DNA of 37,486 bases from Coriobacteriia bacterium. Its GTDB lineage: Bacteria; Actinomycetota; Coriobacteriia; Anaerosomatales; SLCP01. The translations under genes and the position numbers were made by a program. Location: the NCBI GenBank assembly GCA_007121015.1, contig SKMN01000030.1:1-37486 (forward strand), given 5' to 3'. The notes beneath the pieces are model-generated. The model saw only the letters and a list, made by a program, of their open reading frames with translations. It was not told the origin of the DNA and did not search any database. Numbering within the stretch: the first letter of the stretch is position 1; the number at the start of each line of letters is the position of its first letter. Positions 3,182 to 14,886 of this stretch are shown piece by piece.

Positions 3182-3880
3182 TTGAACTCCCGCAACATGC
3201 TTACGGTCCTAAGAGTGTCCACGTACGTGCTCGCTGCCGCGGTGTTCATCGCCGCAGGTTTCGTGGTCAACACGATGCTCTCGCCGCAGGCGACCGACAC
3301 CCCCCGGACCGAGGGCGAGCGCGCCGTCATGTCCGCAGAGCGGGCGGTCCAGGCAGACCCGGACGATCCCGAGGGCCGCTCCACGCTAGCCGCGGCATAC
3401 CTATCCGTGGGCCGCTTCTCCGACGCCTTGAGGGAGGCGGAGTTCGCACAGCGTCTCGATCCGGAGGACGGAAGCGGCTTCCTCGTGGCCGGCATGGCGC
3501 AGCGTCAGCTCGGCCGTCACGACAACGCCATCGCGAGTCTGAACGAGGCGCTCGAGCGCTCGAGCGACAAGACCGCTGACTGGTTCTACCTCCTCTACGT
3601 GGAGTTCGCCCGCGCGTACGAGGCGAATGAGGACTACGAGAACGCGATCGGCGCCCTGAGCGGCGCGCTCACCTACTTCCCCGAGGCCGCCGACTTGTAC
3701 TACGACCGGGCCGTCATCCTCGAGAAGATGGGTGATGTCGAAAACGCCCTTCTCGACTATGAAGCGGTCCTCACCTTTCTGCCCGACGACCTGAGGGCGA
3801 TAGAGGCCATCGCTCGCCTGCAGGGCGATGCCGGCGGGTCGGACGAGGCGACCGGGTCGACCGACGGCGCGCAAGAGTAA
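3182..3880 (+). CDS. Membrane-anchored TPR protein
   Basis: The 232-residue product has an N-terminal transmembrane helix (VSTYVLAAAVFIAAGFVVNTM, residues about 10-30). Four to five tetratricopeptide repeats follow, between about 50 and 215, recognisable from pairs such as AAAYLSVGRFSDALREAE, AQRQLGRHDNAIASLNEAL and RAVILEKMGDVENALLDYE. The tail is acidic and low-complexity. TPR arrays are protein-binding scaffolds, here predicted outside the membrane. The start is TTG, supported by GGAGGT seven bases upstream; no ATG gives a better fit. It lies between the NTF2-like lipoprotein and the NHL protein with short gaps, so it is likely an assembly or docking factor for the same surface complex. 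That role is inferred. Confidence 0.8.
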   Translation: MNSRNMLTVLRVSTYVLAAAVFIAAGFVVNTMLSPQATDTPRTEGERAVMSAERAVQADPDDPEGRSTLAAAYLSVGRFSDALREAEFAQRLDPEDGSGFLVAGMAQRQLGRHDNAIASLNEALERSSDKTADWFYLLYVEFARAYEANEDYENAIGALSGALTYFPEAADLYYDRAVILEKMGDVENALLDYEAVLTFLPDDLRAIEAIARLQGDAGGSDEATGSTDGAQE

Positions 3881-3901
3881 CGCTGACAACTGGAGGTATC
3901 C

Positions 3902-5404
3902 GTGGCTACTGGCAACGTCGTGTTCCGGGACAGCAGGGTGAAGAAGTACCTGTTGGCGCTTCTACTCCTGCTACTCGTGCTGCTGCTGCTGCTGTTCTCT
4001 TACTACCTGCTGACGAGACCGGCACAGCTCGCAGGCGAGGAGGGTGTGCCGGACAACGAGAACTTCCGGTTCCTACACTCCATCTACGGCTTCGAGGGAG
4101 ACCTTCTCAACCGGCCTTCCGACGCGACCATCGGTCCTGACGGCAGGATCTACGTCGCCGACACCATGAAACACCGCGTGGTGATCTTCGAGATGGATGG
4201 CAGGTACGTCGGCAACATCAACGGACTCACCGGCGAGAACTACGGCTTCGTCTACCCAGTCTCCGTCGCGGTGGCAGAAGATGGCCGCATCTTCGTGCTC
4301 TCCAAGCAGGAGCGGGCGATCATCGTCTTCGACCAGAACTTCGAGCCGCTCGACATCGTCGTGTTCCCCGACCTCATCCCCACCGACGTGAGCGTGTACG
4401 GAGACCGTCTCTACGTCGCCACCGACAAAGCGATCATGGTCGGGACGCTCGAGGGCGCGCCGGTACAGCAGATCGGCATGTTCGGCAAGGCCGAGGGCCG
4501 GTTCGACCTTCCGGGCGGACTCGTGATCGATCAAGAGAGCGGGATCATGTACGTGGCGGACAGCCTGAACTACCGCGTCCAGGCGATCGATCCGGAGACC
4601 GGCGCTCCCGAGTGGGTCTACGGTGAGCCGATACCGCCCGGAGAGGCGATCAAGTTCAGAGGTCCCTCACGCGTGTTCGGGCTTCCGGCCAGCATCGCGC
4701 TCGACGAGATGGGCAAGTTGTACGTGGTCGACGGCACCAACAGCGAGATCGTGATCCTCGATACACGAGAGGGTCGTTACGTCGACACCGTCGGCGAAGT
4801 GGGGCATGAGGACGGACGGTTCTACTATCCGGACGGCATCAGCTATGGTGCGGGCGGCTACATCGCAGTCGCCGACAAGTTCAACGACCGCGTGATGGTG
4901 TTCCGCGTTCCCACGCCCGACGTCGCACCGGTCGCGACGCGCTGGCTGCCGCTGCTCCTCCTGCCGCTGCTCGCGCTCCTCCTGTGGCTGCTCGCCAAGC
5001 GCAGGACGAGGTACGTGGCCACGCCTGACTTCATCACCACCGTCATCGAGCGCGAGTTCCTCGACGACGTAGCTGATTACGCGAAGAAGCTCCACGTCAC
5101 GCCGGCCACGTACGCGCTGTTCCAAGATGCGTTCGAGAAACCGGAGTTGGTGGAGACCGAGCCCGACGAGGGCAAGCTGGACGAGATCCACGAGAAGACG
5201 GACCTGGCGGCCGCCCTCGAAGGCGCACTCGCGGACACGCTCACGGTCGTCTACCAACTCAAGGGCAAGAAGGTGCTCCTGGCAGAGGTCGAACCGATAC
5301 GGCAGGCGGCCGATGAGCTCGAGATCGCCAACGCGAGCCTCGAGGACCTGCTCGAGCAGGGAGACGTCGCCGAGCGCCCGATGGCAGAGAGCGAGGGTGA
5401 GTAG
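3902..5404 (+). CDS. NHL-repeat beta-propeller protein, two membrane spans, cytoplasmic C-terminal domain
   Basis: The 500-residue product has three parts. A transmembrane helix (residues about 15-37, almost all leucine) leads into an NHL-type propeller of about six blades (residues about 50-335), shown by repeats such as GPDGRIYVADTMKHRVVIFE, MYVADSLNYRVQAID and KLYVVDGTNSEIVILD. A second leucine-rich helix (about 345-365) and a basic KRRTR stop put the last 130 residues in the cytoplasm. That tail (ATPDFITTVIEREFL to NASLEDLLEQ) has the order of elements of a PIN-like fold but not a full set of catalytic acids. The start is GTG with GGAGGT upstream. NHL propellers are frequent beside multiheme cytochromes in metal-reducing bacteria. 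The propeller is predicted to bind proteins or glycans. Confidence 0.85.
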   Translation: MATGNVVFRDSRVKKYLLALLLLLLVLLLLLFSYYLLTRPAQLAGEEGVPDNENFRFLHSIYGFEGDLLNRPSDATIGPDGRIYVADTMKHRVVIFEMDGRYVGNINGLTGENYGFVYPVSVAVAEDGRIFVLSKQERAIIVFDQNFEPLDIVVFPDLIPTDVSVYGDRLYVATDKAIMVGTLEGAPVQQIGMFGKAEGRFDLPGGLVIDQESGIMYVADSLNYRVQAIDPETGAPEWVYGEPIPPGEAIKFRGPSRVFGLPASIALDEMGKLYVVDGTNSEIVILDTREGRYVDTVGEVGHEDGRFYYPDGISYGAGGYIAVADKFNDRVMVFRVPTPDVAPVATRWLPLLLLPLLALLLWLLAKRRTRYVATPDFITTVIEREFLDDVADYAKKLHVTPATYALFQDAFEKPELVETEPDEGKLDEIHEKTDLAAALEGALADTLTVVYQLKGKKVLLAEVEPIRQAADELEIANASLEDLLEQGDVAERPMAESEGE

Positions 5405-5406
5405 TG

Positions 5407-5976
5407 ATGGATATGTTCGCACCGCGCCTGTGGACACGGGCCCTCGTGATCGCCTTCGCCGCGATGTCGGTAGCGGCGGTGGCGGGGTGCTCCGCCAACG
5501 TCCCGGAGCCCACGGAATCCAAGATCGCCGAGGAGATGGCGGTCGTATCGGTCTACTACCCCGACGGAGAGACCTTGACCGAGGAGCGCCACATCGTGCC
5601 GGACGACGGCAATCTCCCGCAGGTCGCGCTGAGCAGGCTGTTCGAGGCGAGCCCGCAGGAGTTCGAGATAGCGGTCCTTCTCCCGGAGGCCACCGTGAAC
5701 TCGGTGGAGGTCGACGAGACGGGCGTGTGCACCGTCGACTTCTCGAGAGAGATCCTCGACTTTCCGCGCGACGAACGCAAGGCGAAGGTACTTGCGTTCG
5801 CGTCGATCATCGAGACGCTCAGGCAGTTCCCTGAGATCCAGAGCCTCATGATCACCGTCGAGGGTCAGGATTCCGGCTCGATCGACGGTAAGTCCGTGGA
5901 CGAGTTCTGGGGGGACGTACGACTCCCGCCCACGCCGCTCGATATCTCCGTGGAGGAGGACGAGCAGAACGGGTAG
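5407..5976 (+). CDS. GerMN-domain lipoprotein
   Basis: The 189-residue product has a lipoprotein signal peptide with lipobox VAGCS (cysteine near residue 28). A GerMN domain covers residues about 40-165, recognisable from VVSVYYPDGETL, PQVALSRLFEASP, VNSVEVDETGVCTVDFS and an ITVEGQ strand near the end. GerMN domains occur in spore-germination GerM and in LpqB-like lipoproteins of actinomycetes; their ligand is unclear. The start may be GTG 5404, which overlaps the preceding TAG by one base, or ATG 5407; I give the ATG. It is the last gene of the 2199-5976 run and is followed by a strong hairpin. A link to cytochrome assembly or envelope signalling is inferred from position only. Confidence 0.75.
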   Translation: MDMFAPRLWTRALVIAFAAMSVAAVAGCSANVPEPTESKIAEEMAVVSVYYPDGETLTEERHIVPDDGNLPQVALSRLFEASPQEFEIAVLLPEATVNSVEVDETGVCTVDFSREILDFPRDERKAKVLAFASIIETLRQFPEIQSLMITVEGQDSGSIDGKSVDEFWGDVRLPPTPLDISVEEDEQNG

Positions 5977-6055
5977 ACGGCTGCAGCTGAACGAGCCCGC
6001 TCAGTGTGCTGGAGGTACACATGCCCTGCGCAGCAGAAACCCCAGTATCGGCACT

Positions 6056-6096
6056 CGCACGAACGGCACTCGGACAACGCGGGTGCCGTTCGTGCG
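6056..6096 (+). terminator. Long perfect hairpin, likely transcription terminator after the GerMN gene
   Basis: Positions 6056-6069 and 6083-6096 are perfectly complementary over 14 bp (CGCACGAACGGCAC on the left arm). Pairing can extend inward by three more pairs including one G-T, leaving a 7-nt loop. The right arm is followed by TTTC, a short T-run. It sits 80 bp after the GerMN stop and before the A+T-rich promoter region of the cytochrome gene, so it probably separates two transcription units. Confidence 0.65.
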
Positions 6097-6170
6097 TTTC
6101 CTACCTGGGCAAAGGCATAAGGCGTGTCACATGCGCAGCATAAGTAAATCCGATACCTTTTGCACGATAG

Positions 6171-6198
6171 TTGTGAAATTCTTAGCAATATCTATTGT
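6171..6198 (+). promoter_or_regulatory. Candidate promoter of the seven-heme cytochrome gene
   Basis: TTGTGA at 6171-6176 and TATTGT at 6193-6198 are spaced 16 bp apart, inside a stretch (about 6140-6200) clearly richer in A+T than its surroundings. The start of transcription would be near 6205, giving a leader of about 47 nt to ATG 6252. A second -35-like TTGCAC at 6160 lacks an equally good partner. Confidence 0.4.
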
Positions 6199-6251
6199 TT
6201 CAAGCGCACCCGGGTGGTAACGTCAGAGGTCGGAAGGAGGTGACTACACAT

Positions 6252-7763
6252 ATGAACACACACACAGGTTCGCAAACATCGAAGGGAGGTTCCATGCATG
6301 TGAGAACGCTTCTGATCGCGACGATGATGTGCGCGCTCTTGATCTCCGGCGCATCGGTCGCATTCGCCTCGCCTGACTCCACGGCGTGGGTGGAGCCCGG
6401 TCCTGACACGGTCTCCAACGCCGACGGCGTAAGCAGCTGGTTCTACCAGGACCTGCAGGACGACGTGGCCAAGCGCGAAGGCGGCTACGCTGCGTTCGAG
6501 GACACCATCACGGTGAGCCTCTACAGCGACGGCGACACCACGCCGTACGAGACGTCCGAGCAGCTGGGCTACGTCACCAACCCGCACGGCGGGTACGACT
6601 CGACGTCCAACAAGTGTAAGGTCTGCCACGCAGTGCACCGCGCAGAGGGTGCCTACTACCTGCTCCGTGCCAACAGCCAAGACGACGCGTGCGACTACTG
6701 CCACATCGGCGGTTCCGCTCGCTCGAGGCTGGTCGTCTATGATAACTCGCTCGATGGTAAGTACACGACCAACGGACACACCATCGGCGCGAGCGCCATC
6801 ATCCCCGACAGCTCGGTCAGGCAAGAGCTCGTCGACGTGGAGATCTCGACGGTCGACGAGAACATGGACACGCTCGAAGAGGTCGTAGAGGTCCGCAGGT
6901 ACATGGAGCGTCGTAACGCGATGTTCCGCTTCACCACCCAGCACGGCCACCTGTTCGACCACGGCACGTCCAGCTACTCCCGTGTCGGCCCGACCGCGCT
7001 CAGCTGCATGAGCTGCCACCAGGTGCACAACGCCGAGGCGCTCGTGTGGAAGCCTGTCGAGGCCCCGGCCGGCTACAAGCTGCTCCGTGGCTCGCCCTCC
7101 GGTTCGGTCGTCGGACCCAACCAGCAGGTCGACAGGGTCGCTATGGACTCCGTCCCGACCGGCATGATCGCCCGGGTACCTGAGGTCGAGTTCATCACCG
7201 CTGGCAACACCGGTCCCGTGCCGCACAACGACTATCCCACGATCTGGACCGAGTGGACCGGCCCCGCAGAGGGTGCGTTCGACAATGACGAAGCGCAGAA
7301 CCCATCCTACGTCGGCAGCCCCGGAGCCCTTTCGGTCTGGTGTGCGGACTGCCACAACCTCAACATCGGCTACTTCCGTGACGTCGCAGCCGAGCTCGGC
7401 GGCAAGTCGCACGCAGACAGGACCCACCCGGCCCCGTTCGTGGGCGCCAACGACGGTCCTGGCCAGTGCTACACCTGCCACCGCAACGACATGCCCACGT
7501 ACGGCGAGGCCGGCTACAACTGCAACATCTGTCACCTCGGTTCGGAGGAGTACATCGACATGCGCGCCGCTGCTGAGGCAGCGGACCAGTACGCGCTGTG
7601 GGACTTCCCGCACTCCGGTACGGACAACAGCATCAAGCTGCTCGGCGGTTTCACATCCGAGCTGACGTCGATCGCGGTTGAAGTTGTCGAGACGACGGTC
7701 ACGGCCGACAACCTCGACTCTGTCTGCCTGCGGTGCCACACCGGCATCGGCACGAGGCACTAG
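6252..7763 (+). CDS. Secreted seven-heme c-type cytochrome
   Basis: The product is 503 residues with a Sec signal peptide (LLIATMMCALLISGASVAFA) and no later membrane span, so it is predicted to be exported and released or bound at the surface. Seven CXXCH heme-attachment motifs are visible in order: CKVCH, CDYCH, CMSCH, CADCH, CYTCH, CNICH and CLRCH. The first two form a doubled-CXXCH unit with an extra histidine (CHAVH) and an LLR before the second, and CMSCHQVH repeats that layout. The extra histidines suit bis-histidine ligation. ATG 6252 has AGGAGGTGA upstream; ATG 6294 also has a good GGGAGG and would give a shorter signal peptide. Probable role: electron carriage across the cell wall. 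Donor and acceptor are unknown. Confidence 0.9.
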   Translation: MNTHTGSQTSKGGSMHVRTLLIATMMCALLISGASVAFASPDSTAWVEPGPDTVSNADGVSSWFYQDLQDDVAKREGGYAAFEDTITVSLYSDGDTTPYETSEQLGYVTNPHGGYDSTSNKCKVCHAVHRAEGAYYLLRANSQDDACDYCHIGGSARSRLVVYDNSLDGKYTTNGHTIGASAIIPDSSVRQELVDVEISTVDENMDTLEEVVEVRRYMERRNAMFRFTTQHGHLFDHGTSSYSRVGPTALSCMSCHQVHNAEALVWKPVEAPAGYKLLRGSPSGSVVGPNQQVDRVAMDSVPTGMIARVPEVEFITAGNTGPVPHNDYPTIWTEWTGPAEGAFDNDEAQNPSYVGSPGALSVWCADCHNLNIGYFRDVAAELGGKSHADRTHPAPFVGANDGPGQCYTCHRNDMPTYGEAGYNCNICHLGSEEYIDMRAAAEAADQYALWDFPHSGTDNSIKLLGGFTSELTSIAVEVVETTVTADNLDSVCLRCHTGIGTRH

Positions 7764-7792
7764 TACACGACTCTCGGAAGGAGGGTTTCTCA

Positions 7793-8806
7793 GTGGATAA
7801 CGATCACATCATCACACCGGAGGGATCCGGTATCTCCAGAAGGCAGATGCTGGCGGGCGCCGGTATCATAGCTGCTGGGTACGGTGTTGGTCAGTTGATG
7901 ACCGCTCCCCAGGCCTTTGGTCAGACCCCACTCGACATCGCAGCTGTGGACACGAGCGAGGGTCTTCCCTGGCCGACCGCGTTCAGCGTTCAGGCAAACA
8001 TCGACGAGGCCTGCGAGAAGGCTGCTATTCGCGGGTTCAACCAGTTCAACATTGGAGGCGGTTGAGGCAACGCATCCTACTTTGGACTGGTTTCAGTCCT
8101 TATCGAGTTCGGACTCGCGGACGCCGGGGCCGACCGCTATGCGTGGGAGTACATGGCTCCGGGAGTCGCTGCAACGATTCGCAGCTTCCTCCCCGACCCG
8201 GTCCCCGTCGATATCGGTAGCCACGTAGGAACGATGGGTAGCTACGGTCTGCGCGGTATGAACTCCGGTTCGACGTGCGGTATCAACACCTCCATCTCCA
8301 TGGTCGGCGACCAGGCGCTTCCCAACAGCGTCGTAACTCCTGCTCGCAACACGCCGATCACCGAGGTCCTGCGCCACTTCTCGCTCGATCCGCACCCGAA
8401 CAACGACGTAGGCAACGCGTCGTGGTTCCTGGACCACGAAGACAAGCTCGCGAAGGGCGGCGGTCTCGACGATCCGGTCGCAGGCATGGTGTACGGTTCG
8501 CTCGAGTGTCACTCCGTTGTCGCGAAGCATCGCTCGCGCGGCCAGTTCCTCGGAGGAATCACGGATCCAGATCTCGATCAGTGTCGCTCAGAGTTCTGCG
8601 GTCGCCTTGTCGCCGACATGTGCTACCGGATGCTGAGCAACCTGAACGCCCATTACGGTGGTCCGAGGGGTACGTACGATGATGGTACGACTCCCGCCAT
8701 CGTGGACGTCCCGAGTTCGTGTAGGACCGAGGGCTGCCACGACACAAGCATTCTTCCTGGCGGCTTCACGCCCCAGACTGACTGCTTCGCGTGTCACCAG
8801 GGTTAG
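7793..8806 (+). CDS. Tat-exported C-GCAxxG-C-C / split-Soret-like diheme selenoprotein (UGA read as selenocysteine)
   Basis: One reading frame of 337 residues is interrupted only by TGA at 8063-8065 (residue 91). The start is GTG 7793 with GGAAGGAGGG upstream. Residues 15-43 are a twin-arginine signal (SRRQMLAGAG), which implies folding with a cofactor before export. The frame after the TGA continues the same family: GNASYFGLVSVL, then STCGINTSISMVG (C162), LECH (C239) and QCRSEFCGRLVADM (C264/C269). These line up with the four conserved cysteines of C-GCAxxG-C-C redox proteins, the UGA taking the first position. The C-terminus has CRTEGCH (CX4CH) and CFACH (CXXCH), giving two probable c-hemes as in split-Soret cytochromes. 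It lies 29 bp after the seven-heme cytochrome, so they are probably cotranscribed. Substrate unknown. A truncated 90-residue product is the alternative. Confidence 0.85.
8063..8065 (+). other. In-frame UGA, predicted selenocysteine codon (Sec91)
   Basis: The codon follows NIGGG and precedes GNAS. Both flanks belong to the same protein family and frame, with no other stop between 7793 and 8804. The position corresponds to the first conserved cysteine of the C-GCAxxG-C-C family, a redox position where cysteine-to-selenocysteine exchange is expected. Confidence 0.8.
8084..8099 (+). promoter_or_regulatory. Bacterial SECIS-like hairpin in the coding region
   Basis: GGACT (8084-8088) pairs perfectly with AGTCC (8095-8099) around a six-base loop GGTTTC. 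The stem begins 18 nt after the UGA. The distance, the short stem and a loop opening with G and containing GU fit the bacterial SECIS pattern recognised by SelB, as in formate dehydrogenase mRNA. The stem is short (5 bp), so the hairpin alone would be weak evidence; its placement makes it convincing. Confidence 0.7.
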
Positions 8807-8868
8807 ACGCTCTGTGACGAAGTCCGATCGCATCGGTCTTCGCACCAAGAGCGGTGTTACGCAAGTCG

Positions 8869-8904
8869 GTGGGGGTGCCGTTCCTTCGGGGGCGGCACCC
8901 CCGC
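8869..8904 (+). terminator. GC-rich hairpin after the selenoprotein gene
   Basis: GGGGGTGCCG (8871-8880) is the exact complement of 8893-8902, with two further outer pairs (one G-T) and a 12-nt loop. No T-run follows. It may be a weak terminator or a 3'-end stabiliser that sets the selenoprotein mRNA apart from the next gene, which starts 28 bp further on. Confidence 0.5.
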
Positions 8905-8931
8905 ACTCGTCGGTCGCGGGAGTGAGGAAGC

Positions 8932-9441
8932 ATGATGTCGGTGTCCAAGAGCCAGTCGAGCAGGTACGTCAGAATGGTGCTCGCCGTAGCTGTACTATTC
9001 GGCCTCGGGTTGTCGTTCGCCCACCTCCAGGGCGTGTCGACGGCCGAGAAGCGGGTCGGAATCGGTGTCCTCGGCTCCGGCATACAGCCCGAGGACGCCG
9101 ACTCGTCCACCGTGGGTGGTTGCTACTCGGACTCCTCCGATCCTGAAGCACTCATGGCTGAGATGCTCGGCAGGACCATGGAAGACACTGAAGGCTTTGC
9201 TTCCCCCGGTTCTGACTTCCCGTCGGATCATGCAGACGGACAGGGTGGAGCCGCAGGGTCCGGGACCGGTTCTCAGCCGCCGGGAGCGGCAGCGCCGTCC
9301 GAGGGCGATTCTTCGGGTGACGGAACTGCGGATCAGCCAGCGTCCGGTGACGAAGACGGTTCCGAGGACGACGCAGTCGATTGTCCTCGCCCGAAGGGCT
9401 CCACGTCCCACCCGGTTCCCCGCACGCCGGAGGGGCAGTAA
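8932..9441 (+). CDS. Small acidic exported protein of unknown function
   Basis: The 169-residue product has an N-terminal signal or anchor helix (MVLAVAVLFGLGLSFAHL, residues about 14-31). A short region with VGIGVLGSG and GGCYSDSSDPEALMAEML follows. The last 80 residues are low-complexity, rich in Gly, Ser, Asp and Pro, with DCPRPK near the end. Two cysteines remain in the exported part. No family is recognised. The start is ATG 8932 (a second ATG follows at once) with GTGAGGAAG upstream. It lies between the selenoprotein and the CWB2 surface protein. A linker or partner role in the wall is possible but unsupported by any motif. Confidence 0.6.
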   Translation: MMSVSKSQSSRYVRMVLAVAVLFGLGLSFAHLQGVSTAEKRVGIGVLGSGIQPEDADSSTVGGCYSDSSDPEALMAEMLGRTMEDTEGFASPGSDFPSDHADGQGGAAGSGTGSQPPGAAAPSEGDSSGDGTADQPASGDEDGSEDDAVDCPRPKGSTSHPVPRTPEGQ

Positions 9442-9531
9442 GATGGGTTTGCTCGCGGCCTGCCGTACGTATAGGTCTCGGCATACTCTTTGTGGGCAAG
9501 TATCGGATCTCGAACCGTTGAAAGAAGAGCG

Positions 9532-11685
9532 ATGATGATGACTCTGCGCAACAAGGTACTCGCCGTACTGCTCGCATCGGCTCTGTTCGTGTCTGCGACC
9601 GGGGCCGGCCTCTACCCGTCGTCCGCCCATGCGGTGACGCTCGACCAGGCTCTTGCGGCCCAGGGGAGGATCGCCGGGGGAGGAGAGCACTCGATCTCGG
9701 TACGCTCTGACGGTACGGTCGCAACGTGGGGCGCTACGAGCTGGAGCCGGCGAAGCGTACCACCAGGGCTGAACAGCGTCGTCTCCGTCGCCGCGGGGTG
9801 GGGTCATTCGCTCGCACTGAAGTCGGACGGCACCGTCGTCGGATGGGGCGAGATGCTTGGCGACATACCCGCAGGGTTGACCGATGCGGTGGACATTGCA
9901 GCCAGTGCAGGCAATTCGATCGCTGCCCGTGCGGATGGCACCGTGGTCGCGTGGGGCCCGGTCTTCCCCGAAGTTATGACCGTACCCGACGGGCTCACGG
10001 GTGTCGTGGCGGTCTCAGCTGGCGAGGACCATTTCCTCGCACTGAGAGCAAACGGGACGGTGGTCGCGTGGGGTTACGACACCTACGGGCAGACCCAGGT
10101 CCCATCGGGTCTCAGCAACGTCGTAGCCATAGCGGCAGGCGGGTACCACTCCCTCGCGCTCAGATCCAACGGAACAGTGGTCGCGTGGGGGAACAACGGG
10201 CAACAACAGTGCGCCGTGCCCTCGGGCCTCTCCGGCGTCGTCGCGGTCGCAGCGGGGGTGCGGCACTCCCTCGCGCTGAAGTCCGACGGCACGGTCGTGG
10301 CGTGGGGAGGTCGAACGGCCCTCGGCACTGACCCCTCGGTCAGCGTGCCCACCGGGCTGAGCGGGATCATCGCCATCGCTGCCGGTGAATACTACTCGCT
10401 CGCCCTCAGGAGCGATGGTTCGAGCATCGGGTGGGGCGCGAACGGGTCGGGTCAAAGCTTCGGCGTCGCGTCCTACACACCGGCGGCGGGCTCCGTCATC
10501 TCTGTGCCGATCCCCTTCACGAGGATCGCCGGTAACGACAGGGTCGCCACCGCCGTGGAGGTCTCGAAGACGACCTTTGCAAGCGCCTCGACCGTCATCG
10601 TGGCAACCGCGATGAACTTCCCCGACGCGCTCGCGGCAGCCCCGCTCGCGCATGCCCACAGTGCTCCGATCCTCCTCGTGCCACCGACATCGGTCCCCTC
10701 GGCCGTGACCAACGAGATCACCCGCCTCGGCGCGACGAAGGCGATCATCGTGGGCGGGACGGGAGCTGTCTCTGGCACCGTGGAGACCACGCTCAAGGGC
10801 AGAGGCCTGGCGGTCGAGCGCATCGCGGGCACCAACCGCTACGACACCGCAGCTAAGATCGCCGCTGCGCTCAGGACGGCGCTCGGCGTGCCCGGCTTCG
10901 ACAAGGCCTATGTCGCCACGGGCGAGAACTTCCCCGACGCACTCGCGGCAGGAGGCATCGCCGCGTTCGAAGGCGCACCGATCCTCCTCACCCAGAAGGA
11001 CGCGCTTCCCTCCGAGACGAGGACGGCCGTCACGTCACTTGCGGTGAAACAGACCGTGCTGCTTGGCGGGACGGGTGCGGTCTCGGCCGCGGTTGCAGGT
11101 CAGCTGCCGAGCCCGACGAGGATATCGGGACCTGATCGCTATTCGACCGGCATCGAGGTCGCGAAGTATGGGCTCGACACCGTCGGACTGTCGGATGCGG
11201 CCATCTACCTGGCCACCGGACAGAACTACCCCGATGCGCTTGCTGCCGGGGCCGCGTCGGCGGCGAACGGCATCCCGGTCATCCTCGTGCAGGGCACTCC
11301 ACCTGTCCCTGTGGCGGTTACGAGGTTCATGCAGTCACGCAGTCCTGCTATCAAGCAGATCAAAGTCCTCGGAGGCACCTCCGCGGTGTCAAACGCGGTC
11401 GTCAACAGTGTCAGGGGTGAGAATCCGAGCTTCGTGGTCACGTTCAACTCGCCCGTGCGCGAGGGTCTGAGCAGGTACTACGACACTATCACGTTGACGA
11501 ACAGCGCTGGTGACGGCATCGCCTTCACCAAGTCTTTGAGCGGCAACAACCTCATCGTGACACCATCGACACACCTTCAGGCCGATGAGGCGTACACGTT
11601 GTTCGTTCCTGGACGCGCACTGAGGAACCCTCACAACCTGAGCAATCGAGGGAGCGGCGCGACTTTCTACACGCCTGCTCCGTAA
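9532..11685 (+). CDS. Surface protein: RCC1-type repeats, three cell-wall-binding repeats (CWB2), C-terminal Ig-like domain
   Basis: The product is 717 residues with a Sec signal peptide (VLAVLLASALFVSATGAG). Residues about 40-310 carry seven RCC1-like propeller repeats of the form HSLALKSDGTVVAWG followed by VPSGLSGVVAVAAG. Residues about 325-630 hold three CWB2 repeats, each with RIAGxxRYxTA, NFPDALAA, PILLV and a VLGGTGAVS strand; CWB2 triplets bind anionic cell-wall polymers in Gram-positive bacteria. Residues about 634-717 resemble an SbsA-type Ig-like domain (VTFNSPV to YTLFVPGRALRN). The protein is thus predicted to be held non-covalently on the wall with the propeller exposed. I chose ATG 9532 (three ATGs in a row, GAAAGAAGAG upstream); a TTG at 9490 lacks support. 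It could scaffold the neighbouring cytochromes. Confidence 0.9.
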   Translation: MMMTLRNKVLAVLLASALFVSATGAGLYPSSAHAVTLDQALAAQGRIAGGGEHSISVRSDGTVATWGATSWSRRSVPPGLNSVVSVAAGWGHSLALKSDGTVVGWGEMLGDIPAGLTDAVDIAASAGNSIAARADGTVVAWGPVFPEVMTVPDGLTGVVAVSAGEDHFLALRANGTVVAWGYDTYGQTQVPSGLSNVVAIAAGGYHSLALRSNGTVVAWGNNGQQQCAVPSGLSGVVAVAAGVRHSLALKSDGTVVAWGGRTALGTDPSVSVPTGLSGIIAIAAGEYYSLALRSDGSSIGWGANGSGQSFGVASYTPAAGSVISVPIPFTRIAGNDRVATAVEVSKTTFASASTVIVATAMNFPDALAAAPLAHAHSAPILLVPPTSVPSAVTNEITRLGATKAIIVGGTGAVSGTVETTLKGRGLAVERIAGTNRYDTAAKIAAALRTALGVPGFDKAYVATGENFPDALAAGGIAAFEGAPILLTQKDALPSETRTAVTSLAVKQTVLLGGTGAVSAAVAGQLPSPTRISGPDRYSTGIEVAKYGLDTVGLSDAAIYLATGQNYPDALAAGAASAANGIPVILVQGTPPVPVAVTRFMQSRSPAIKQIKVLGGTSAVSNAVVNSVRGENPSFVVTFNSPVREGLSRYYDTITLTNSAGDGIAFTKSLSGNNLIVTPSTHLQADEAYTLFVPGRALRNPHNLSNRGSGATFYTPAP

Positions 11686-11737
11686 ACGCGGTCGTGGCTG
11701 ACACAGCCCGCGTCATGTAGCCAGCCGCCCATCGGGG

Positions 11738-11754
11738 GTGACGCTTGGCGTCAC
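11738..11754. terminator. Small hairpin between convergent genes
   Basis: GTGACGC (11738-11744) pairs with GCGTCAC (11748-11754) around TTG. A smaller hairpin (GGCTG/CAGCC, 11696-11708) lies just upstream. Neither has a T-run, but both sit in the 162-bp gap between the convergent CWB2 and TPR genes, where termination from both sides is expected. Confidence 0.35.
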
Positions 11755-11847
11755 TGGGCTCCGTGTATGACGCTCGCACATCAGCGCCTGTTAGAAGGTG
11801 CTGCCCTCGAAATGGTCTTGCGGGTCATACTCATGCCTCATGGGCTT

Positions 11848-12582
11848 CTACGGTGCGCCGATGATGTCCGGATTGAGTTCCTGTGCCTTGGCGAAATCGA
11901 CAGTCGATTCGTAATCTCGCCCTATCTCCCGCCAGGCAATCCCGCGGTTCATATAGGCGGTCGCATTGGACGGGTCGAGTTCGATGGCCTTCGAGTAGTC
12001 TTCGATGGCGTGGGCTTGCACGGTGCGTGCCTTTGCCCTCCAGGCCACTGCACGGTTGGTGTAGTACGTCGCACCTGAGGGGTCGAGTTCGATGGCCTTC
12101 GAGTAGTCGGCGATCGCCTCGTCGATAGCGCTCAGCGCTATCCGAGCGAACCCACGGTTGCTCAGCGCGGACGCATCTGAGGGGTCGAGGTCTATGGCCT
12201 TCGAGTAGTCGGCGACCGCCTCTTCAAGCGCATCGTTCCGGTGGTGGATGATGCCGCGGTTGTTGTATGCGCGACCATTGGACGGGTCGAGCTCGATCGC
12301 CTTCGTGTAGTCGCCAGCGGCTTCGTCGAGTTGGTTGAGGTTCTGCCGCGCGATGCCGCGACGGTAGTATACGTCTGCATTCGACGGGTCGAGTTCGATG
12401 GCTTGCGTGTAGTCCTCGGCAGCCTTCGCGTACTCGTTCTGCGCGAACCAGGCGAGACCTCGCTTGAAGTGCGCGCTCGCATCGGACGGATCCAGCTCGA
12501 TGGCCTTCGAGTACTCCTCGATTGCCTTGGCGTACTCGCCCTGCTCGTAGTGCGCGTCCCCCATATGTACGTGCTCCTCCAC
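11848..12582 (-). CDS. Soluble TPR-repeat protein
   Basis: The 244-residue product is almost entirely tetratricopeptide repeats: about seven units of 34 residues with the near-invariant core DYSKAIELDPSNA. There is no signal peptide or membrane helix, so it is predicted to be cytoplasmic. TPR solenoids bind other proteins; no partner can be named. The start is GTG 12582 with GGAAGGGAG upstream; ATG 12564 would remove six residues. The repeats are unusually alike at DNA level. It lies 71 bp downstream of the cytochrome genes on the same strand and could be read from their transcript, although TATAGT in the gap could serve as its own -10. Confidence 0.85.
   Translation of the reverse strand: MEEHVHMGDAHYEQGEYAKAIEEYSKAIELDPSDASAHFKRGLAWFAQNEYAKAAEDYTQAIELDPSNADVYYRRGIARQNLNQLDEAAGDYTKAIELDPSNGRAYNNRGIIHHRNDALEEAVADYSKAIDLDPSDASALSNRGFARIALSAIDEAIADYSKAIELDPSGATYYTNRAVAWRAKARTVQAHAIEDYSKAIELDPSNATAYMNRGIAWREIGRDYESTVDFAKAQELNPDIIGAP
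11950..12545 (-). repeat. Tandem 102-bp coding repeats within the TPR gene
   Basis: Segments around 11968, 12082, 12184, 12286, 12388 and 12490 share long nearly identical runs (for example GTCGAGTTCGATGGCCTTCG on the plus strand) at a period of about 102 bp, one 34-residue TPR each; one period is 6 bp longer. DNA-level identity beyond what the protein requires suggests recent duplication or gene conversion among the units. Confidence 0.7.
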
Positions 12583-12653
12583 TTTGCTGCTCCCTTCCTG
12601 GCGTACGCTCTCTTCTCTGGCACGCGTCCACTATAGCGTGGATATCGTGCGGA

Positions 12654-13901
12654 TCAGCGATCTATGCGGCCCCCGATGCTAGGGACGTTGAACGGATAGT
12701 TCCTGCCCGGCGGGAGTGTGACCGGCTCACGATACGTGTGGCAGTTCTCGGTGCAGACCCGTGCCGCATGGCAAAGGCCCGTGCACTCGCGCGCGTCGTA
12801 GCGGCGGTGCGACCAGAACGTCTGTGCGTCCGGACCGTGGACCTGGATCTCATGGCACTGCTCGCAGAACGCGTCTCCCTGCGTGAACGGACCGCGCTCG
12901 GAGTAGTGGCACCTCCAGCACACCTGCTTAGCGGTGAACGCAGCCGGGCGGGCATGACCGGGGACTACGAACTCGTCCCACACGTAGCGGGTACCCTCCC
13001 AGTTGGGCGGGTGCGGCATCGTCACGCCGTGGCACGGGAGGCACTCGCTGCTCTCGTCGTGGCAGTCGTAGCAGAAGTCCCAGGAGACATCGACCTCGAG
13101 CCGCTGGGGGAAGTCCCGCTTGGCGGGCCGAGCGCCCTCGCCCACGTCCTCGAGATGGCACACGTTGCACTCGCTCGATGCCTCGTTGCCCTCGTGGCAC
13201 AGCAGACAGGTCGCCATGTTCGCGACACGCACCGGCGTGGTGACACCGGGGTGGCCGACCTGGTTGTGACAGTCGACGCACCGGGAGGCGGCGTCGTTGA
13301 TCTCTTGGTGGCTGACGCGCAGGTTGTAGATGAGGCTCGGCTCTCTCAGCACCTCCCTGTGGCACTTCAGGCACGCCGCGTCGGCGACGTTGCCCCTCAG
13401 GCGCTCGGTCGGCGGCACCTCGTCTGTTGCAAGGTATACGAGCGCCCATCGGGTGAAGTCGACCTTCTGCTGGACGAACCCGCTCACGCCTGGCTTCATG
13501 TGACAGGAGATACAGCTCTCTTCCGCATGGACCGACTCTTCTAGCGACCTCTTGTGTGCGCCGTCGGAGTGGCAGTTGAGACAGTTGCGTTCGGCCTGTG
13601 TGTAGTGCGTGAAGGGGACGGCTATCGCGGCGAGGAGCACGAGCAGCAGGGCGCGGTTGATCCACATCTCCCGGCGGGTCGTCTTGGGCCGGACCCAGGT
13701 GATCCCCTTGCCCTTGCCGCTGACGAACAGGTAGACCGAAACCACCAGCAGCACGAGGATGGCCAGGAGCACCACCACGATGAATAGGCTCAAGACGGCG
13801 AGCGACGGGTTCGACGCGGGTGCGACGAGCGCCTGCTGCAAGTCGAGCAGGAACATGTCGAGGGCATCGCGCCAGTTGAGGCTGTCGGTACCGTTAGTCA
13901 A
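12654..13901 (-). CDS. Membrane-anchored multiheme cytochrome c, 10 CXXCH plus 2 CX3CH motifs
   Basis: The 415-residue product has two N-terminal hydrophobic helices (about 33-60, VLSLFIVVVLLAILVLLVVSVYLFV; and about 83-97, ALLLVLLAAIAVPF) and a long heme-rich domain. Ten CXXCH motifs are seen: CLNCH, CISCH, CLKCH, CVDCH, CLLCH, CNVCH, CYDCH, CLPCH, CWRCH and CEQCH. Near the C-terminus CTGLCH and CTENCH have three residues between the cysteines and may or may not carry heme. The first helices and spacing recall NapC/NirT-type quinol-oxidising cytochromes. The start is TTG 13901 with GAGGGAGG upstream; it overlaps the end of the preceding cytochrome gene by 8 bp, so the two are cotranslated. 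Probable role: passing electrons from the quinone pool outward. Confidence 0.9.
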   Translation of the reverse strand: MTNGTDSLNWRDALDMFLLDLQQALVAPASNPSLAVLSLFIVVVLLAILVLLVVSVYLFVSGKGKGITWVRPKTTRREMWINRALLLVLLAAIAVPFTHYTQAERNCLNCHSDGAHKRSLEESVHAEESCISCHMKPGVSGFVQQKVDFTRWALVYLATDEVPPTERLRGNVADAACLKCHREVLREPSLIYNLRVSHQEINDAASRCVDCHNQVGHPGVTTPVRVANMATCLLCHEGNEASSECNVCHLEDVGEGARPAKRDFPQRLEVDVSWDFCYDCHDESSECLPCHGVTMPHPPNWEGTRYVWDEFVVPGHARPAAFTAKQVCWRCHYSERGPFTQGDAFCEQCHEIQVHGPDAQTFWSHRRYDARECTGLCHAARVCTENCHTYREPVTLPPGRNYPFNVPSIGGRIDR

Positions 13902-14886
13902 GTCCGAGCCTCCCTCGCAACTGTCGCAGGGTGTCGGTGGGGATGCCGGGGTGCGTGTGCGCGGTGTGACACCTCAAACATGCCGAGGGGTTGTGGCACC
14001 GGTAGCACTTTTCTTCGTCCTCTTCGGGAGTACCCGAGTGCGCCTGGAGGAACCCGTCAGGGTGCGGCATCTCCATCTGATGGCACGCGTAACAGAACCG
14101 CTCGTAGTCGTGACACGTGTAGCAGACACCTTCGGTCTCGACGGCCACCGCTGCTGCGCCGTGACGGTAGTGGAAGCCGGCGGGATGCGGCATCTCGATC
14201 CCATGGCATCTCGTGCAGTACGAGGGGTGGTGGCACACGTTGCATGTCTGCAGTCCGCCCATCCCGTGGAGCGCTTGCCAGTTCTCGCCGTGGGTCAGTC
14301 GCCAGACGCTCTGGTACGGTCTGCGGTCCGTCGTCCTCTCGCCCGCGTGACAGATCTCACACCGCGCGCTCTCGAGCGAGCTGTGACACGAGAAGCAGTC
14401 GAACATGTCGACGCGCCGGATGGTGTCGCCGATGAGCGTGTGGCCGGTGTCGGAGTGGCAGTCCGAGCACAGGTAGCCTCTGGCGAGCTTCTCGCGGTGG
14501 CTCATGCGGATGCCTGTGTCGGCGACAAAGGTGGTCAGCACCTGCTCGGCGTGGCACGAGGTGCAGTTGTCGTTGGTGACAAGCGTCGTCTCCGGCTGCC
14601 TTCCCAGTGCTGTGGCTGGAATCATTCGTGAGTAGCTGACGCGGAAGTTCAGCCGCTCCGTGATGGTCGTGCCACTGTGACACGAGTTGCACGAGACGGC
14701 TGCGTGTAGCTGCTCGGTATGGGACTCGGCCACGGCTGAGTGACATGCCGTACAGGTGGATTCGACCGGTGCAAGGCTCATCGACACGAATGCATAGATG
14801 ACGAATCCCAGCAACGCGACCTTCACGGCGAAGATCGCGCGGTCCTCGAGTTCGCGACGCTTCCGTCTCTGCTCCCGGCTGCTCAC
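13894..14886 (-). CDS. Membrane-anchored dodecaheme cytochrome c
   Basis: The 330-residue product has one N-terminal membrane helix (IFAVKVALLGFVIYAFVSMSL, about 18-38) after a basic cytoplasmic start. Twelve CXXCH motifs follow: CTACH, CNSCH, CTSCH, CSDCH, CFSCH, CEICH, CNVCH, CTRCH, CYTCH, CYACH, CYRCH and CLRCH. Heme density is very high, about one per 24 residues of the outer domain, which suits a wire-like electron carrier. The pattern CHGIEMPHPAGF and CHQMEMPHPDGF also appears once in the downstream cytochrome, so the two proteins share modules. The start is GTG 14886, overlapping the preceding stop by 4 bp (GTGA). Likely forms a membrane-to-surface relay with its two cotranscribed neighbours. 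Confidence 0.92.
   Translation of the reverse strand: MSSREQRRKRRELEDRAIFAVKVALLGFVIYAFVSMSLAPVESTCTACHSAVAESHTEQLHAAVSCNSCHSGTTITERLNFRVSYSRMIPATALGRQPETTLVTNDNCTSCHAEQVLTTFVADTGIRMSHREKLARGYLCSDCHSDTGHTLIGDTIRRVDMFDCFSCHSSLESARCEICHAGERTTDRRPYQSVWRLTHGENWQALHGMGGLQTCNVCHHPSYCTRCHGIEMPHPAGFHYRHGAAAVAVETEGVCYTCHDYERFCYACHQMEMPHPDGFLQAHSGTPEEDEEKCYRCHNPSACLRCHTAHTHPGIPTDTLRQLRGRLGLD

Follow-up and report, generated by a model that had tools for sequence, protein, structure and literature searches.

What does an in-frame UGA codon do in a gene whose product ends in two candidate haem-binding motifs, and what kind of protein would carry the residue that it encodes? This question arises in the window, the whole stretch of 37,486 nucleotides of a Coriobacteriia bacterium that was analysed here, where a reading frame extends from a GTG start codon at 7793 to a stop codon at 8804-8806 when the UGA is translated as selenocysteine (Sec). 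The aligned GTG start is also used by the closest relative of the window gene. The gene and the signals around its start and its UGA codon are the following:

7793 to 8806, forward strand: split-Soret-type selenoprotein gene, 337 residues, assigned from translation with TGA as Sec, homologues with the same UGA and a fold match to 1H21
7780 to 7784, forward strand: ribosome binding site GGAGG, seen in the sequence 8 nt 5' of GTG 7793
7832 to 7918, forward strand: twin-arginine (TAT) signal, residues 14-42 (SRRQML...), with an arginine pair conserved family-wide and a TIGR01409 score of 13.5 bits, just below the cut-off of 16.7
8063 to 8065, forward strand: in-frame UGA, residue 91, Sec replacing an invariant Cys, in a column where all 100 aligned sequences have either C or UGA
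8084 to 8099, forward strand: SECIS-like stem-loop GGACUG-GUUU-CAGUCC, whose loop G lies 24 nt past the UGA

We found that the column of codon 91 comprises 11 UGA rows and 89 Cys rows among the 100 aligned family members, with no exceptions. Nine of the UGA genes belong to Actinomycetota and come from the window genome and eight genomes of its order (G055, G022, G004, G003, G026, G006, G020 and G005), and two lie beyond that phylum, in Thermoflexia bacterium J88 (L049, Chloroflexota) and in G1063, which belongs to the same class as the Thermoflexia genome; the phyla with UGA at this column are therefore Actinomycetota and Chloroflexota. One genome, G006, carries both copies, one with Sec and one with Cys. 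Upon placing the Cys/Sec label on a tree of 96 rows, five changes were observed, of which at least four sit on well-supported branches, indicating that the swap occurred repeatedly. The earlier note had read the UGA as a selenoprotein codon, a reading that is borne out by the 10 other genes with UGA in the identical column.

Downstream of the UGA, hairpins were scored by the general SECIS consensus and not by a model, with 5 or more stem pairs and a loop opening with GU required. Such hairpins were found in 9 of the 11 Sec genes, at 21-24 nt past the UGA, compared with 2 of the 82 Cys homologues, and the hairpin of G055 has an identical loop and one stem pair that is compensatorily changed relative to the window gene. 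When the genes were recoded synonymously, 1.4% of the recodings formed the hairpin for the window gene and 68-70% also yielded it for the Sec clade f2; in that clade the amino acids largely dictate the hairpin, which there is weak and not independent evidence. For whole-region folding, 44-66 nt past the window-gene UGA, the stability was not significant (z -0.4 to -1.0), and since the region as a whole has an ordinary folding energy, the case for the hairpin rests on its position, its loop and the comparison with the Cys homologues. A search of Rfam found no RNA family within the window.

The window genome has selA, selB, selD and a gene for a YedE-like transporter in one cluster. Its selD contains an in-frame UGA at the catalytic position (SSKAG-U-AAK; L019:12133-12135, G000:C35) and represents a second, canonical selenoprotein. 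Searches of the window assembly (98% complete), one of them at the DNA level with the G055 tRNA-Sec as query, found no tRNA-Sec, whereas G055, G022 and G754, the last being the genome of L049, each have selB and a tRNA-Sec with anticodon UCA. Because the contigs that bear the tRNA-Sec genes of G055 and G754 are small (3.2 and 7.8 kb), loss in assembly is a plausible account for the window organism.

Next, we consider what the protein is. The window protein alone matched no Pfam family, and in a PDB search its sole match was 1H21, with an E-value of 0.86. In NCBIfam, the split-Soret cytochrome c model NF047622 matches the C-terminal part of the window protein (E 1e-7) with 31.8 bits, which does not reach the equivalog cut-off of 400 bits. 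Two Sec relatives score 39.8 and 65.8 bits against this model, L049 scores 203.5 and the Desulfovibrio protein L105 scores 432.7, being the only one among the proteins tested that passes the cut-off; weak matches were also observed in G399, G502 and G482. A first scan of genomes, with the two closest Sec proteins as queries, gave no match, and a second scan of named genomes, seeded by Actinomycetota Cys homologues, gave 80 relatives spanning Bacillota, Chloroflexota, Nitrospirota, Thermodesulfobacteriota, Archaeoglobales and others. A profile of ten Sec and Cys forms, among them the window protein and a Desulfovibrio Cys protein, aligned with 1H21 over most of its length with E 1.1e-67, and in the same alignment the Sec column falls on a cysteine of 1H21.

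At the level of the fold, an AlphaFold model built from the window protein and 68 relatives was of moderate confidence (pLDDT 65, pTM 0.65), and its top Foldseek match was again 1H21 (E 2.9e-3). A structural superposition, set beforehand as the check on the suggestion that the protein resembles the split-Soret cytochrome, returned 1H21 as the one clear match (VIA Z 17.2 over 225 residues at 3.9 A, versus Z 3.0 for the next chain), with the reservation that AlphaFold was presumably trained on 1H21, so that the fold match and the sequence evidence are not wholly independent. The proposal of a seleno-version of the split-Soret cytochrome thus stands as regards fold, profile homology and a UGA at the position of a Cys, and fails as regards the equivalog cut-off (31.8 versus 400 bits); because of that shortfall, the window protein is a relative within the split-Soret superfamily and not an equivalog of the Desulfovibrio protein.

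The residues that would hold its cofactors are these:

8276 to 8278, forward strand: C162, invariant (TCG motif), putative iron-centre ligand by alignment
8507 to 8512, forward strand: C239-H240, invariant, with C239 a putative iron-centre ligand and H240 a putative distal haem ligand
8597 to 8599, forward strand: C269, invariant (FCGRL), putative iron-centre ligand by alignment
8720 to 8740, forward strand: haem motif 1, C310-RTEG-C315-H316 (CX4CH), aligning with the first CXXCH of split-Soret cytochromes
8783 to 8797, forward strand: haem motif 2, C331-FA-C334-H335 (CXXCH), seen in the sequence, in aligned relatives and in the profile against 1H21

Upon closer examination of the C-terminus, CRTEGCH and CFACH were confirmed at residues 310-316 and 331-335, within the last 30 residues as previously described; two CX2-4CH motifs within such a stretch occurred at a frequency of 7e-5 in 200,000 protein shuffles. 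Motif 2 is kept in 98-99 of the 100 aligned relatives and motif 1 in about 69. A coupling of the CX4CH spacing to selenium was considered and rejected, since Sec proteins with a CXXCH motif 1 (G055, G026, L049) and Cys homologues with CX4CH (G046, G032) both occur, and on these alignments the spacing is best described as a lineage trait that is not tied to selenium. Further spacings were observed among the Sec relatives, with a second motif of CX3CH type in G022, G004, G003 and G026 and a first motif of CX5CH type in G005 (L134, L135, L136, L139, L143).

The diheme Cys proteins have exactly four conserved His columns, namely the His of the LCH motif (H240), the two motif His and a C-terminal His (96%). 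Monohaem split-Soret-like proteins, which are without the first CXXCH, make up 32 of the 100 aligned rows (L034-L113 and others), and the C-terminal His is also missing in 81% of them; as the monohaem relatives usually are without both, the first haem probably has the C-terminal His as its distal ligand. Of the nine actinobacterial Sec proteins, eight, the window protein among them, end before this His, and seven have an extra His three residues past the LCH histidine. The absence makes the ligation of the first haem uncertain, and one haem of the window protein may be ligated otherwise than in 1H21. Split-Soret cytochromes are marked by bis-His haem ligation, to which the other monomer contributes, and by haem stacking that splits the Soret band; of the candidate ligands, the window protein retains H240.

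We also examined the candidate iron site. C162, C239, H240 and C269 are kept in 99 of 99 readable sequences, and in the window protein the three invariant Cys of the iron-site set are present while the fourth is the UGA. From the alignments, Sec91, C162, C239 and C269 appear to correspond to the core of the C-GCAxxG-C-C proteins. The title of the 1H21 entry, a solved split-Soret relative, describes "a novel iron centre", which is non-haem. In sum of likenesses, the window protein shares with the split-Soret cytochrome c of Desulfovibrio desulfuricans ATCC 27774 (1H21; NF047622) the fold, a pair of haem motifs at the C-terminus, the LCH motif with the invariant Cys set, and profile homology (E 1e-67), and differs from it by Sec in place of the first invariant Cys, a CX4CH first motif, large insertions and the missing C-terminal His. 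The iron centre of 1H21 is reportedly [2Fe-2S]-like, a description said to come from Abreu et al. in 2003.

Directly upstream of the Sec gene lies its probable partner:

6195 to 7763, forward strand: multihaem cytochrome gene with 7 CXXCH (Pfam Cytochrome_C7)

A 55% identical multihaem cytochrome also adjoins the Sec gene in G055, in synteny, and more multihaem cytochromes lie near the window Sec gene; the adjacent and nearby cytochromes suggest extracytoplasmic electron transfer. The stretch 3182-14886 of the window, which encodes TPR and NHL proteins, cytochromes, an RCC1 and cell-wall-binding protein and cytochromes with 10 and 12 CXXCH, occurs in the same gene order in G055 (L120). In G022 (L121:4538-7822 and 10170-12451), the Sec gene is preceded by a 1094-residue multihaem protein (15 CXXCH, 3 CX4CH, DUF5648) and followed downstream by ResB and a cytochrome c assembly protein. 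ResB had no match in the whole assembly of the window genome (G000), though its multihaem cytochromes are many.

Several other explanations were weighed against this evidence. Were the UGA an ordinary stop, the result of a pseudogene or a sequencing error, the locus would yield two short proteins, as the failure to find a tRNA-Sec in the assembly would allow; we consider this extremely improbable, given that the identical invariant Cys column is UGA in 11 genes of two phyla, that the frame and all other motifs are intact downstream, and that the genome encodes SelA, SelB and SelD, the last with a UGA at its own active site. Only slightly less remote is the notion that the C-terminal motifs bind no haem and that their cysteines are structural or form a disulfide. 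CX4CH is atypical and the pLDDT is below 60 across the C-terminal 50 residues of the AlphaFold model, but each motif lines up with a haem motif in 1H21, motif 2 is retained in 98 of 100 relatives, and multihaem cytochrome genes adjoin the window gene.

A more serious competitor, which we nonetheless regard as unlikely, accepts a split-Soret-type selenocytochrome and has Sec91 work on a substrate as a selenolate, either free or paired with a Cys, to which the haems provide electrons. Thiol-based oxidoreductases are, according to a review, the homologues of most selenoproteins predicted in bacteria, and a Sec swap that is partial within the family and repeated is what would be expected if selenium tunes catalysis; set against this, Sec91 is among four strictly co-conserved Cys positions, the solved member of the domain has a non-haem iron centre, and the window protein is without a CxxU or UxxC pair. 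We therefore prefer, with a probability of about 0.7, a TAT-exported split-Soret-type diheme cytochrome c that carries Sec91 at a putative Fe-S centre.

For this preferred cytochrome, the UGA at 8063 would be decoded as Sec by SelA, SelB and SelD via the SECIS-like hairpin just 3' of it, and the protein would act on the external face of the membrane after TAT export. Sec91, C162, C239 and C269 most likely hold the non-haem iron-sulfur centre known from the Desulfovibrio protein, where Sec91, as a presumed Se-Fe ligand, would tune the potential or the reactivity of the iron centre. The two C-terminal c-haems, predicted to attach at C310-C315-H316 and C331-C334-H335, would form the electron exit, and electrons would most likely pass between the neighbouring multihaem cytochrome and the selenolate-ligated iron-sulfur site. 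It is conceivable, albeit doubtful, that the protein is an enzyme and not an electron carrier, with a selenolate-ligated iron-sulfur centre beside two stacked haems, one of which would have an open or rearranged site where the usual sixth His is absent.

Finally, we asked how far such a protein is new. The C-GCAxxG-C-C family (PF09719; TIGR01909) resembles the window protein in its four-Cys core and differs in that no haem is ascribed to its listed members and that the window protein falls below the model. Two forms of C-GCAxxG-C-C selenoprotein and two other seleno-cytochromes appear in reviews from 2022 and 2026, which make no mention of split-Soret proteins. The two seleno-cytochromes, ExtKL (NF040886) and an octaheme cytochrome of the tetrathionate-reductase family (TIGR04315), are multihaem cytochromes with predicted Sec (PMC13188914); like the window protein they are c-type cytochromes with a predicted Sec, and they belong to other cytochrome families, a distinction made by name only. 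A search for literature joining "split-Soret" with selenoprotein or selenocysteine, with most subscription journals outside its reach, found none. On novelty, and compatibly with the preferred cytochrome, the protein could be a member of the listed C-GCAxxG-C-C selenoprotein family with added haem motifs, so that its selenium site would not be new. We find this unlikely: TIGR01909 bears the name "C-GCAxxG-C-C family (seleno)protein", split-Soret relatives match it and also pass the PF09719 cut-off (L049, L034 and L105), and the reviews already list two Sec forms, but the window protein matches neither PF09719 nor TIGR01909 and the reviews are silent on split-Soret. The listed sequences WP_012158890.1 and MGD8741185.1 may overlap with the split-Soret selenoproteins.

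Overall, what appears new is that a putative iron ligand in a split-Soret-type superfamily has switched repeatedly between Cys and Sec, seleno-cytochromes as such being already listed. Sec was gained or lost at least four times at one putative Fe-S ligand position of a single cytochrome family, and as standard gene calling cuts genes of this kind in two at the UGA, databases probably conceal the family. Natural Cys/Sec pairs, such as the two copies in G006, provide a direct test of the effect of selenium on a haem-coupled iron-sulfur centre.
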